Positions 25,661 to 29,578 of a stretch of DNA of 64,000 bases are shown here, in pieces (position 1 is the first letter of the stretch; every line of letters begins with the position of its first letter). Source of the DNA: Oscillospiraceae bacterium (lineage in GTDB: Bacteria > Bacillota > Clostridia > Oscillospirales > Oscillospiraceae); assembly GCA_015067435.1 (NCBI GenBank), contig SVMM01000001.1, positions 186,001 through 250,000 of the forward strand, given 5' to 3'. Below the pieces are notes generated by a model. It saw only the letters and a list, made by a program, of their open reading frames with translations, was not told the DNA's origin and ran no database searches. The position numbers and the translations under genes are program-made.

Positions 25661-25688
25661 GATGAACAGCGCCTCCGGCGCGCAGCAA

Positions 25689-25722
25689 TATTTCGCGGTT
25701 GCCGCTTCGGCGGCGAGCGAAA
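25689..25722. repeat. Two-step palindrome between mutY and the radical SAM gene
   Basis: ATTTCGC pairs with GCGAAAT, enclosing a GCCGC/GCGGC stem. It sits next to the palindrome at 25737-25766 in the 73-bp space upstream of mutY. The ATTTCGC/GCGAAAT sequence is also found in the palindrome at 244-276. Confidence 0.6.
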
Positions 25723-25733
25723 TGTCGGTTCTT

Positions 25734-26594
25734 TCAAGATTCAACAGGACTTGTCCTGTTGAATCTCGAGGCGTAACCGCAGCGGCGGCACAGCTCCTCG
25801 GTCGGCAGACGCCGGGAGAAACCGTCCAGCAGCGCGACTGCGCGCGGCTTTCGCAGGATATCGTCCAATTCCTCGTCGAAGAGATTGCCCAGCGCGACGT
25901 CGCCCTCGTGGTCGAGGCAGCAGGGCACGACCGTGCCGTCCGCGAGGACGCCGATCTGCTCGCGCAGCGCGCGGCAGAACTCGACGCCCGCCTCCGCGGC
26001 GCGCAGATCCGGCCAGTCGAAGACGCGCTCGCGCTCCAGATAGATGCGCTCCGCGAGGCGGAAGCTGCGATCGCGGTGCTCCGGCCAGTCGTCCCGTCCC
26101 GTCTTCTCGCGCAGAAAATCGAGGATCGCGCCGTTGCCGCTCTCCGCGCCGCCCTCGTTCCAGAGACGCAGTGCGCAGATGACGCCCCGCGCCGCGGCGA
26201 GGACGGCGAAGTCCCAGACGGCTTCGAGATACGCGCGCGAGAGCGCGACGTCGATGCCGTTCCCCTCCACGCAGTGCAGCGAGACGCTGACGCGGTAGAG
26301 CGCGCCCGACGCAAGCAAAACGTCCCCGCGCTCGCGGAGCAGCATGCCGTTCGTGGCAATGCAGAGCTTTGCGCCGTGTCCTTCGGCGACGGACAAAAGC
26401 TCCGGCAGCTGCGGGTGCGTCAGCGGCTCGCCCATGACGTGCAAATAGACATAGGAAACGTGCGGGGATATTTTTTTCAGCACCAGATCGAACTCCCGCG
26501 GCGACATTGCGCGCGGCGCGCGACGGGTGCCGGGGCAGAACGCGCAGCGCAGGTTGCACACGTTTGTGATCTCCACGTACGCTTTTTTCGGCAT
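25734..26594 (-). CDS. Radical SAM / SPASM-like protein
   Basis: A 286-residue protein. The radical SAM motif is CNLRCAFC at the N terminus (AYVEITNVCNLRC), followed by YLHVMGEPLTHPQL and CIATNGMLL. The C-terminal region has CCLDHEGDVALGNL and CRRC, a short SPASM-like cluster site as in MoaA-related or peptide-modifying enzymes. The substrate is unknown and no precursor peptide is evident nearby. ATG at 26594 follows GGGAGGGG. The last ten residues (RFNRTSPVES) are encoded by a perfect palindrome. Confidence 0.85.
   Translation of the reverse strand: MPKKAYVEITNVCNLRCAFCPGTRRAPRAMSPREFDLVLKKISPHVSYVYLHVMGEPLTHPQLPELLSVAEGHGAKLCIATNGMLLRERGDVLLASGALYRVSVSLHCVEGNGIDVALSRAYLEAVWDFAVLAAARGVICALRLWNEGGAESGNGAILDFLREKTGRDDWPEHRDRSFRLAERIYLERERVFDWPDLRAAEAGVEFCRALREQIGVLADGTVVPCCLDHEGDVALGNLFDEELDDILRKPRAVALLDGFSRRLPTEELCRRCGYASRFNRTSPVES
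25737..25766. repeat. 14-bp perfect palindrome at the 3' end of the radical SAM gene
   Basis: Arms 25737-25750 and 25753-25766 are exact reverse complements with a 2-nt loop. They encode the final residues of the radical SAM protein, whose TGA lies at 25736-25734. The minus strand continues CTTGAAAG, not a T-run. Confidence 0.8.
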
Positions 26595-26622
26595 GTTTCC
26601 GCCCCTCCCTTTTGTCTGCAAA

Positions 26623-26652
26623 ATGATACCACAAAAGACGGGATTTGTGCAA
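26623..26652 (-). promoter_or_regulatory. Promoter for the radical SAM - mutY - tdk series
   Basis: Minus strand TTGCAC (26652-26647), 18-bp spacer, TATCAT (26628-26623), close to the ribosome site of the radical SAM gene. Confidence 0.6.
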
Positions 26653-26660
26653 GTGTCGGC

Positions 26661-26690
26661 TTGCCGAAACAGCCGTTTTCGTGGTATAAT
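26661..26690 (+). promoter_or_regulatory. Promoter for the structured leader / MBL hydrolase
   Basis: TTGCCG (26661-26666), 18-bp spacer, perfect TATAAT (26685-26690). It is divergent from the radical SAM promoter. The expected start near 26697 lies a few bases before the first helix of the leader. Confidence 0.65.
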
Positions 26691-26696
26691 CCGCTT

Positions 26697-26880
26697 GAAA
26701 AAATGATTTGCGCCGTACCGAGAGAAAAACGCGAAGCCGGTCGGTCGATGAAGAATCTTGAGGAAAAGTCGATGCGAAAAACGGATATTCGGTCGAATTG
26801 TCCCGAAATATGCCGTGTTTGAGCTCGGTCTATCGCAAATGATATTTATAGTAAACCCCCGCGTCGGCGCGTCGGGTGAG
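26697..26880 (+). ncRNA. Structured leader RNA of unknown class upstream of MBL hydrolase
   Basis: The ends of this stretch are complementary in nested order: ATTTGCG (26706-26712) with CGCAAAT (26834-26840); ACCGAG (26717-26722) with CTCGGT (26824-26829); AAACGCG (26727-26733) with CGTGTTT (26814-26820, one G-U), extended by GC/GC across a 2-nt bulge. An inner hairpin pairs ATATTCGG (26785-26792) with CCGAAATAT (26803-26811). A weaker TCGA/TCGA pairing closes another arm at 26745-26772. After the outer helix a CGCG-TCGG-CGCG hairpin precedes the GGAGGAAG ribosome site. The layout is that of an aptamer plus expression platform, but it matches no riboswitch I recognise. Confidence 0.45.
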
Positions 26881-26891
26881 GGAGGAAGCAT

Positions 26892-27647
26892 ATGAAGGTG
26901 ACTTACATCGCCCACAGCGGATTTCTCGTCGAGTGGGAGCGGTTTTATACGCTCTTTGACTTCTGGAAGGGCGAGCTGCCGTCCCTGGGGGACAAGCCCC
27001 TGCTCGTCTTCGCCAGCCACAGCCACCAGGACCACTTTGACCCGCGAATTTTCAAGCTGCTGAAGGAATATCCGGATGTCTCATTCTATCTTTCCCACGA
27101 CATCCGGCTCGCGACGCGCCACTGGGAGAAGCTGGGCGTAACAGACGAGGTGTACGCGCACGTAACACACCTCCGTGTGGACAGCGTGCTTGCGACGGAG
27201 GTCGCGGGCGAGCCGCTGACGATCCGCACGATCCAGTCCACGGACGCGGGCGTCGCCTTCTTGCTCTCCGCCGAGGGCAAGCTCGTCTATCACGCGGGCG
27301 ACCTCAACTGGTGGCACTGGGTGGAGGAGGACAAGCAGTTCCGCAACAACATGTCGGCGAACTTCCGCCGTGCGATGGAGAAGCTCGCTGCCGCGGTGCG
27401 GGACGAGGCGGCGGACGCCGGCTGTCCGCCCGTCATCGCCGCGGCGATGGCGCCGCTCGACCCGCGGCTGGAGGACGCCTACGGCATGGGCGTGGAGCAG
27501 CTGATGAAATGCGTCGAGGTCGAGCGCCTGTTCCCCATGCACATGTGGGACAAATACGACTGGATCGACCGCTACCGCGGCGAGCATCCCGCGGAGGCTG
27601 CGCGCATCGTCCGCATCCGTCAGAACGGCGAGACGTTCACGCTCTGA
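26892..27647 (+). CDS. MBL-fold metal-dependent hydrolase
   Basis: A 251-residue metallo-beta-lactamase-fold protein. The metal motif is ASHSHQDHFD (H-x-H-x-D-H), with VYHAGDLN supplying the later metal aspartate and LFPMHMWDKYD a C-terminal histidine. It resembles UlaG-like or YtkL-like MBL hydrolases, whose substrate cannot be read. ATG follows GGAGGAAG. It is alone, preceded by a structured leader with its own promoter, so its expression is probably specifically controlled. Confidence 0.87.
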   Translation: MKVTYIAHSGFLVEWERFYTLFDFWKGELPSLGDKPLLVFASHSHQDHFDPRIFKLLKEYPDVSFYLSHDIRLATRHWEKLGVTDEVYAHVTHLRVDSVLATEVAGEPLTIRTIQSTDAGVAFLLSAEGKLVYHAGDLNWWHWVEEDKQFRNNMSANFRRAMEKLAAAVRDEAADAGCPPVIAAAMAPLDPRLEDAYGMGVEQLMKCVEVERLFPMHMWDKYDWIDRYRGEHPAEAARIVRIRQNGETFTL

Positions 27648-27800: not shown

Positions 27801-28775
27801 ATGGCAAAGTTTAAGGTTTATTACACCATCGAACTCAACGAGGTGGCCACGAAGATCTTCGAGCAGAACGATTTTGAAGTGAAGCTGTGCTCGCACAACG
27901 ATGAAGAGACCTATGTCAAGGAGCTCGCCGAGTTCCAGCCCGACGGCATCATGTGCCGCACCGAGCCGATCACGGCGAAGATGATGGACGTCTGCAACAA
28001 CCTGAAGGTCGTCGGCAAGCAGGGCGCGGGCCTCGACAACATCGATATGGACCACGCCGCCGAGAAGGATATTCAGGTCGTTTTCGCGCCCGCCGGCAAC
28101 GCCAACGCCGTCGCCGAGCATGTGCTTCTTCTCATGCTCGCCTGCGCCAAGCGCTTCACCTATGTCGATCGCCAGTTCCGCGGCGGCAACTTCCTCGTCC
28201 GCATGGGCATGGAGCACACTTACGAGCTGGAGGGCAAGACCCTCGGCATGATCGGCGCGGGCCGCATTTCCCAGCTCGCCATGAAGAAGGCGAAGTACGG
28301 CTTCGGCATGAACGTCATCGCCTACGACCCCTTCCTCACGCAGGACAAGGTCGGCGACCTGTGCGAGCTCAAGGCGACCGCGAAGGAGGTCTGGGAGCAG
28401 GCGGACTTCGTCAGCGTCCATCTGCCCGAGGTCGAGTCCACCCACCACTCCATCGGCCGCGAGCAGTTCGGCTGGATGAAGCCCAACGCCACGTTCATCA
28501 ACTGCGCGCGCGGCGGCCTCATCAAGGAGGATGAGCTGGTGGCGTGCCTCAAGGACGGCACGCTGTTCCAGGCGGGCCTCGACGTGTTCGAGCACGAGCC
28601 GATCCAGGAGTCCAGCCGCGAGCTGTTCAACCTCGACAACGTGGTCATGACCCCGCACATGGCGGCGACCACCGAGCAGTCGGTGCTCAACTGCTGCACC
28701 AGCGTCGCCAACGACATCGTGCTGGTGTGCAACGGCGAGGCGCCCAAGTGCCCCGCCACCAAGCCCAAGTTCTGA
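27801..28775 (+). CDS. D-isomer 2-hydroxyacid dehydrogenase (SerA-like)
   Basis: A 324-residue NAD-dependent enzyme. Catalytic residues: Arg in NCARGGLI, Glu in DVFEHEP, His in TPHMAATTEQ. The nucleotide-binding Rossmann motif is GKTLGMIGAGRIS. There is no ACT regulatory domain, so it is either a short phosphoglycerate dehydrogenase or a dehydrogenase of another 2-hydroxyacid. Codon choice is strongly C-ending, suggesting high expression. ATG at 27801 follows GAGAGGAG. It is monocistronic, with its own promoter and a very strong terminator. Confidence 0.88.
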   Translation: MAKFKVYYTIELNEVATKIFEQNDFEVKLCSHNDEETYVKELAEFQPDGIMCRTEPITAKMMDVCNNLKVVGKQGAGLDNIDMDHAAEKDIQVVFAPAGNANAVAEHVLLLMLACAKRFTYVDRQFRGGNFLVRMGMEHTYELEGKTLGMIGAGRISQLAMKKAKYGFGMNVIAYDPFLTQDKVGDLCELKATAKEVWEQADFVSVHLPEVESTHHSIGREQFGWMKPNATFINCARGGLIKEDELVACLKDGTLFQAGLDVFEHEPIQESSRELFNLDNVVMTPHMAATTEQSVLNCCTSVANDIVLVCNGEAPKCPATKPKF

Positions 28776-28946: not shown

Positions 28947-28991
28947 CACCAGAAAAAGGACGACGTCAAAGACGTCGTCCTTTTTCTGGTG
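28947..28991 (-). terminator. Terminator of the tRNA operon, overlapping the tRNA-Lys 3' end
   Basis: Perfect 21-bp stem (28947-28967 with 28971-28991) around a 3-nt loop. Its 5' arm on the minus strand starts with base 72, the discriminator and the CCA of tRNA-Lys; CCTTTTT lies in the 3' arm. The rest of 28837-28946 shows only GC-rich sequence without a gene. Confidence 0.85.
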
Positions 28992-29062
28992 CCCCGTCGG
29001 GGATTCGAACCCCGGACACCCTGCTTAAAAGGCAGGTGCTCTGCCGACTGAGCTAACGGAGC
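28987..29062 (-). tRNA. tRNA-Lys (TTT)
   Basis: 76 nt including encoded CCA. Acceptor GCTCCGT/ACGGGGC, anticodon loop CTTTTAA with TTT at 34-36, and T-loop GGTTCGAATCC are all present. It is the last gene of a five-tRNA operon. Confidence 0.95.
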
Positions 29063-29180
29063 GAATATGGGCTCCCATCGCAAACCAGCGAAGCGTTTGC
29101 GATGGGAAAAGGAGGAGCAATGAAGCGATACTGAGTTTTCGCGGACAGCGGAAACGGAGTGAGCGCAGTTTGCTCCGACG

Positions 29181-29255
29181 TGGCAGGGATGGCTGGACTC
29201 GAACCAGCGAATGAGGGAGTCAAAGTCCCTTGCCTTACCGCTTGGCTACACCCCT
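29181..29255 (-). tRNA. tRNA-Gln (TTG)
   Basis: 75 nt with encoded CCA. Anticodon loop CTTTGAC gives TTG; acceptor AGGGGTG/CATCCCT with discriminator G as usual for Gln. A 12-bp perfect hairpin (29074-29106) lies in the spacer to tRNA-Lys. Confidence 0.95.
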
Positions 29256-29300
29256 ATGTGGAGAAGAGGGATCGGGGTGAACCCGATCCCTCCCCTGTTG

Positions 29301-29378
<78 letters not shown>

Positions 29379-29420
29379 ACATATGCTGTATCCCTGCGAT
29401 GCCGAAACGCTTTTAGGCGA

Positions 29421-29497
<77 letters not shown>

Positions 29498-29503
29498 ATA
29501 GGA

Positions 29504-29578
29504 TGGAGCAGGTGACGGGAATCGAACCCGCATCCCCAGCTTGGAAGGCTGGTGCCCTGGCCATTGTGCTACACCTGC
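29504..29578 (-). tRNA. tRNA-Gly (TCC)
   Basis: 75 nt with CCA. Anticodon loop CTTCCAA gives TCC; acceptor GCAGGTG/CACCTGC. It is the first gene of the operon and only 6 bp from tRNA-Arg. Confidence 0.95.

Follow-up and report, generated by a model that had tools for sequence, protein, structure and literature searches.

What is the roughly 150-nt stretch that lies between a promoter and the start of an MBL-fold hydrolase gene in an Oscillospiraceae bacterium, and does it act as RNA? We addressed this question in a 64-kb stretch of the genome (hereafter the window), in which the hydrolase gene (26892..27647, plus strand) matches Lactamase_B_3 (PF13483) at 28.7 bits (cut-off 24), with its ATG at 26892 preceded, on reading the sequence, by a GGAGG-type ribosome site. 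The next gene on its 3' side encodes a 2-hydroxyacid (phosphoglycerate-type) dehydrogenase (27801..28775, plus strand), and a divergent radical SAM/SPASM gene (25734..26594, minus strand) has its promoter region in common with the leader. A preliminary description of the locus had proposed a riboswitch-like structured leader, linked to a promoter and outside any recognised class, with a perfect TATAAT that sets the start a few bases 5' of the first helix and a small CGCG hairpin ahead of the ribosome site. Both of these elements are present on the plus strand: a sigma-70-type promoter, TTGCCG-18-TATAAT, with an extended -10 (TG) and 10 of 12 consensus letters (26661..26690), and a CGCG-TCGG-CGCG stem that can be read directly 5' of the ribosome site (26860..26871). 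The predicted transcript start lies near 26697, defining a plus-strand leader at 26697..26844. A weak -10-like TATAGT (26847-26852) lies 3' of the leader, 45 nt 5' of the MBL ATG, and could give transcripts without the leader.

Beside the radical SAM gene, at its 3' end, we also observe a repeat element (25680-25800) that contains TTCAACAGGAC/GTCCTGTTGAA and looks like a REP-type palindromic repeat. It has 35 matches of 79-100% identity in the window genome, counting its own site and inner palindrome, nearly all of which span only about its first 50 bases.

The three nested helices that had been drawn within the leader are correct in letters and positions on direct reading of the plus strand. 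Helix 1 (P1) joins ATTTGCG (26706..26712) to CGCAAAT (26834..26840), helix 2 joins ACCGAG (26717..26722) to CTCGGT (26824..26829), and helix 3 joins AAACGCG (26727..26733) to CGTGTTT (26814..26820) with one G-U pair; the 4x4 loop between helices 1 and 2 is likewise there. The minimum-energy fold of 26697-26844 includes all three helices, with all 20 pairs at a probability of 0.95-1.0, and does not favour the inner hairpin that had been proposed at 26785-26811, whose five outer pairs (those tested) reach 0.04-0.12. The fold energy of the window leader is modestly low (z -1.72; 28 of 500 shuffles equal or better), its 20 pairs spanning at least 85 nt are matched by 18 of 1,000 shuffles, and the longer segment 26697-26900 folds in an ordinary way (z 0.13; 108/200 shuffles equal or better). 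By themselves, the helices of the window are weak evidence for structure.

We searched for the same arrangement in a sample of 18 genomes of the genus, several members of which come from rumen samples, judging by the closest MBL relatives. The MBL gene is found at E <= 1e-30 in 16 of them, and a long leader lies between the same promoter and the gene in 3 of the 16: the window genome, G002 (locus L017), and G004 (locus L018). The preliminary description had asked whether homologues precede MBL genes, and both additional homologues sit at this same promoter-MBL position. A scan with five -10-like hexamers gives a distance from box to ATG of 207 nt in the window, 212 nt in G002, and 201 nt in G004; reading of the upstream regions reveals no leader in the other 13 orthologues, 12 of which have a -10-like box 29-60 nt before the ATG, with none detected by the scan in the remaining one (G015). 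A leave-one-out nhmmer profile built from the G002 and G004 leaders has a sole match in the window, at 26699-26820 (E 4.4e-5), which ends short of the distal arm of helix 1, and none of the 13 leaderless loci yields a profile match at E <= 10. These comparisons show the homology and the location of the leader.

Alignment of the three leaders leaves 70 of 156 columns invariant, despite MBL proteins that are just 67-69% identical between the window and G002 or G004. The invariant blocks include AAAAATGATTT at the start, which the 5' arm of helix 1 overlaps; the 10-base AAAGTCGATG in the middle (26765..26774, plus strand); and AAATGAT at the end (26837-26843), which the 3' arm overlaps. In a three-gene tree G002 and G004 group with each other (support 100) and the window species falls elsewhere, although the deep branches are poorly supported. 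Presence of the leader in the genus is patchy, apparently through losses or more than one gain. In the region common to the two divergent promoters, G004 carries a perfect 34-base palindrome that includes both -35 boxes (L018 1267-1300), and the same palindrome is imperfect in G002 and in the window.

Comparison of the three leaders reveals a conserved fold on the sense strand. RNAalifold returns a domain whose closing stem is helix 1 (AUGAUUUNCGG/CCGNAAAUGAU in its G002 and G004 form) with local hairpins within, at a z of -3.64 that none of 500 column shuffles equals or betters, and the antisense fold is ordinary (z -1.04; 74/500 shuffles equal or better). Six MAFFT settings give sense-strand values of -2.94 to -3.85, with 0 or 1 of 200 shuffles equal or better, and z is at most -2.71 in 84 control tiles from the rest of the same three loci (half-overlapping tiles on either strand, each with 60 shuffles, largely of coding sequence and mutually more similar than the leaders are). 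The consensus structure pairs 86.9% of 99 cells, with 6 pairs changed on both sides, and pairing falls to 32.7-38.5% when the partners are slid, a control that is biased in favour of the structure because the structure was taken from the same alignment.

The helices of the preliminary description offer a fairer test, having been derived from the window alone and scored at the aligned columns of G002 and G004; it was uncompensated change in their paired segments that would have spoken against them, and on this point they fare unequally. Helix 1 is kept in all 14 homologue pairs, with one U-G/G-C double change and one single change. Helix 2 is kept in part (8/12; 4/6 in each homologue), with one C-G/G-C double change and with A-A and G-G mismatches in both homologues. 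Helix 3 retains 5 of 14 pairs (2/7 in G002, 3/7 in G004), near the level of the slid controls. Over all 60 cells of the three helices, 78.3% pair, a value that none of 500 shuffles reaches and that compares with 30.0-41.7% in slid controls, where the alignment controls do not preserve dinucleotides. Covariation is thin, since there are three sequences and two of them are close.

The 5' strand of helix 1 has other potential partners. In computed ensembles helix 1 has a probability of 0.003 in G002 and 0.016 in G004, where the minimum folds are local and lack it, and it lies 4.0 and 3.3 kcal/mol, respectively, above the minimum. The G004 strand pairs proximally instead, GAUUUUCGG with CCGAAAGUC, at 0.98 for the five pairs tested; the G004-type pairing has a probability of 0.004 in G002, whose minimum fold favours another nearby stretch; and in the window 26766-26770 can compete with helix 1 from a proximal position by pairing with 26705-26709. 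G002 and G004 can form all 9 pairs of the AAAGUC helix, with a double change at one of them (two sequences, for which a shuffle control is uninformative), and the window can form 6 of the 9. Enforcing helix 1 in G004 also yields CAGAC/GUCUG immediately within it, at the position of helix 2 but in shifted columns. Having more than one possible partner for its 5' strand makes the leader compatible with a switch, and this may also be a sign that helix 1 does not serve as the working structure in every species.

The range of the leader is narrow in every collection that we searched. At the gathering threshold, Rfam 15 identifies only five tRNAs in the window; for 26600-26960 there are two sub-threshold matches down to E 10, the better being malK-III at 13.1 bits against a cut-off of 50, and no match listed for L017 or L018 reaches its cut-off, in keeping with the earlier statement that the leader belongs to no recognised class, for which an Infernal/Rfam search had been proposed as the check. 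The window also carries a five-tRNA cluster on the minus strand (28990-29578). There is no second copy of the leader in the window genome, and long matches to the G004 leader in the genus are confined to the three loci. In 400 genomes of the family, the three leaders reach 104-123 bits with a sequence model (R1), against 18.6 bits or less for the other matches listed, and a structure model (R2) returns three matches at E <= 0.01, all at this locus; in 391 genomes of the class, R2 returns the window's own match and one that was rejected on reading (G916, 24.8 bits). These genome searches covered samples, under stricter filters that are able to lose weak matches. Over 82 sources, comprising the window, L017, L018, and 79 of 80 MBL-relative loci (L038 was omitted as lying on the same contig as L018), R2 adds one weak match (L065; 17.2 bits, E 0.16).

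Other candidates were set aside. The 99 further family genomes that R1 matches at E <= 1 (102 of 400 in total) were treated as noise, with a best score of 18.6 bits; L131, L133, L137, and L145 were examined. Six matches to the pattern AAAGTCGATGNNAAAA beyond the window leader, in 200 family genomes, are unrelated on reading, and a 29-base match in G050 consists of a hairpin, the remainder of the leader being absent, which we attribute to chance. A 5'-block pattern with two mismatches allowed, applied to 394 genomes of the order, has zero-mismatch matches only in the window genome and G004, with G002 absent from those listed; it also matches 25 other places, of which the 18 that were read all lack GTCGATG nearby on either strand, and the other seven include a single-mismatch one. 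No viral contig encodes the MBL, 74 viral contigs match a loose 23-base pattern, and phages give no match at E <= 1. The paper listings searched and passages of PMC8040213 contain no description of the leader.

On balance, and with moderate confidence, we regard the element as a structured 5' leader that is restricted to one lineage and acts in cis on the MBL hydrolase mRNA, probably tuning expression after transcription has started. Its transcription, its part in regulation, and any switching are what we infer from the patterns above. Transcription would start a few bases ahead of the first helix, and the first transcribed block, AAAAAUGAUUU, would pair with the distal CGCAAAUGAU to close a domain of some 135 nt. 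Nearer partners would also be available to this 5' strand, predicted to be a stretch ending in the invariant AAAGUC in G004, another nearby stretch in the computed fold of G002, and a weaker AAAGUC pairing in the window. The leader would then tune hydrolase expression post-initiation, most simply through the stability of the mRNA 5' end or through exchange of the distal and proximal pairings. Against this reading, 13 of the 16 orthologues manage without a leader, helix 1 has a low computed probability in G002 and G004, and neither a sense-strand terminator nor clear pairing of the leader with the ribosome site was found. The preliminary description is probably right in its broad proposal of a structured leader outside the recognised classes, with a fold conserved on the sense strand; its riboswitch-like side is not borne out by any Rfam match, platform, spread to other genes or families in the genomes sampled, or hint of a ligand.

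A metabolite riboswitch of a new class, in which helix 1 closes the aptamer and exchange between distal and proximal partners is the switch, ranks highest among the alternatives and is nevertheless unlikely. It would account well for the multibranch consensus closed by helix 1 with its invariant blocks, for the competing proximal and distal pairings, and for the position directly 3' of a promoter. Riboswitches usually recur before functionally related genes in many taxa, although this is not strictly required, whereas the leader precedes one gene in three genomes and was found nowhere else in the 400 family and 391 class genomes sampled, with filters that can lose weak matches; that narrow range makes this reading less probable. 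It is further opposed by the lack of an Rfam match and of an evident output: no sense-strand terminator and no ribosome-site platform were found, and the ribosome site is computed to pair mostly with coding sequence and not clearly with the leader. A more specific version, to which we give a little less credence still, is a recently arisen class of RNA switch in which the 5' end AAAAAUGAUUU would choose between a proximal partner near AAAGUCGAUG and the distal AAAUGAU according to a metabolite linked to the MBL hydrolase, in a few species of one rumen and gut genus.

It is doubtful that the structure is a chance feature of an ordinary long 5' UTR that is conserved for other reasons. The modest z of the window sequence taken singly, the computed folds that differ among species, and column shuffles of three sequences that leave dinucleotides unpreserved all fit such an account; it is the sense-only consensus signal, exceeding all 84 control tiles, that argues for the structured leader instead.

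Conservation could also reflect DNA, as an operator just past the start site, for example for Spo0A, to which RNA pairing would be incidental. The G002 and G004 leaders contain TGTCGAA, which we take to be the Spo0A-box consensus, with AGACGAA 10 bases upstream; the leaderless G013 has TGTCGAA 34 nt before its ATG; and Spo0A_C proteins are encoded in all three leader-bearing genomes. The box is lost in the window, whose leader has no Spo0A-type box at the aligned place; TGCCGAA occurs in its promoter (26662) and one-mismatch copies lie at 26749, 26759, 26791, and 26801. An operator would also leave the 150-nt length and the sense-strand bias of the fold unexplained, and we find this explanation improbable. 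The window genome has two Spo0A_C matches above cut-off (156 and 79 bits; G000 contigs C6 and C16), and G002 and G004 have one each.

Slightly less plausible again is the idea that a small mobile element bearing terminal repeats inserted behind the promoter and left the leader as its relic. Patchy presence, in a window species that is not sister to G002 and G004 in a tree with low deep support, and AAATGAT at both ends of the leader are what such an element might leave; the leader is nonetheless single-copy in the window genome, its long matches in the genus are the three loci only, its internal blocks are conserved, and all three leaders occupy one and the same position with respect to the promoter. 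Conservation driven by a small protein or leader peptide is very improbable: open frames do begin at the same ATG (26703) in all three leaders, almost at the predicted transcript start, but the window frame is 39 aa long and those of G002 and G004 are 23 aa, and this reading fails because the small frame has no excess of synonymous change. Between G002 and G004 it shows 1 synonymous and 8 nonsynonymous codons (6/3/5 differences at the three codon positions), whereas the MBL gene shows 66 and 20 (11/11/77); the pattern is not coding-like, and the conserved coding frame that the preliminary description had named as contrary evidence does not run through the region.

If the structured leader is real, it is a leader RNA of very narrow range, which certain species of a genus possess while the same gene lacks it in others. 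Surveys that depend on many homologues will probably overlook young or easily lost elements of this kind, and the leaderless orthologues provide a natural control for the effect of the leader.

Among known systems, Spo0A-controlled promoters carry boxes near the start site, and the TGTCGAA of G002 and G004, with AGACGAA 10 bases upstream, resembles them; the window leader differs in not keeping the box at the aligned place. Candidate structured RNAs from comparative genomics of gut bacteria, for example those in PMC8040213, are alike in being conserved intergenic candidates without a function. Although it matches none of the Firmicutes riboswitches and cis-regulatory leaders (Rfam Cis-reg) at gathering score, and serves one gene in three species, the leader shares with them a sense-strand 5' position, a larger domain that a terminal helix closes, conserved blocks, and competing pairings.
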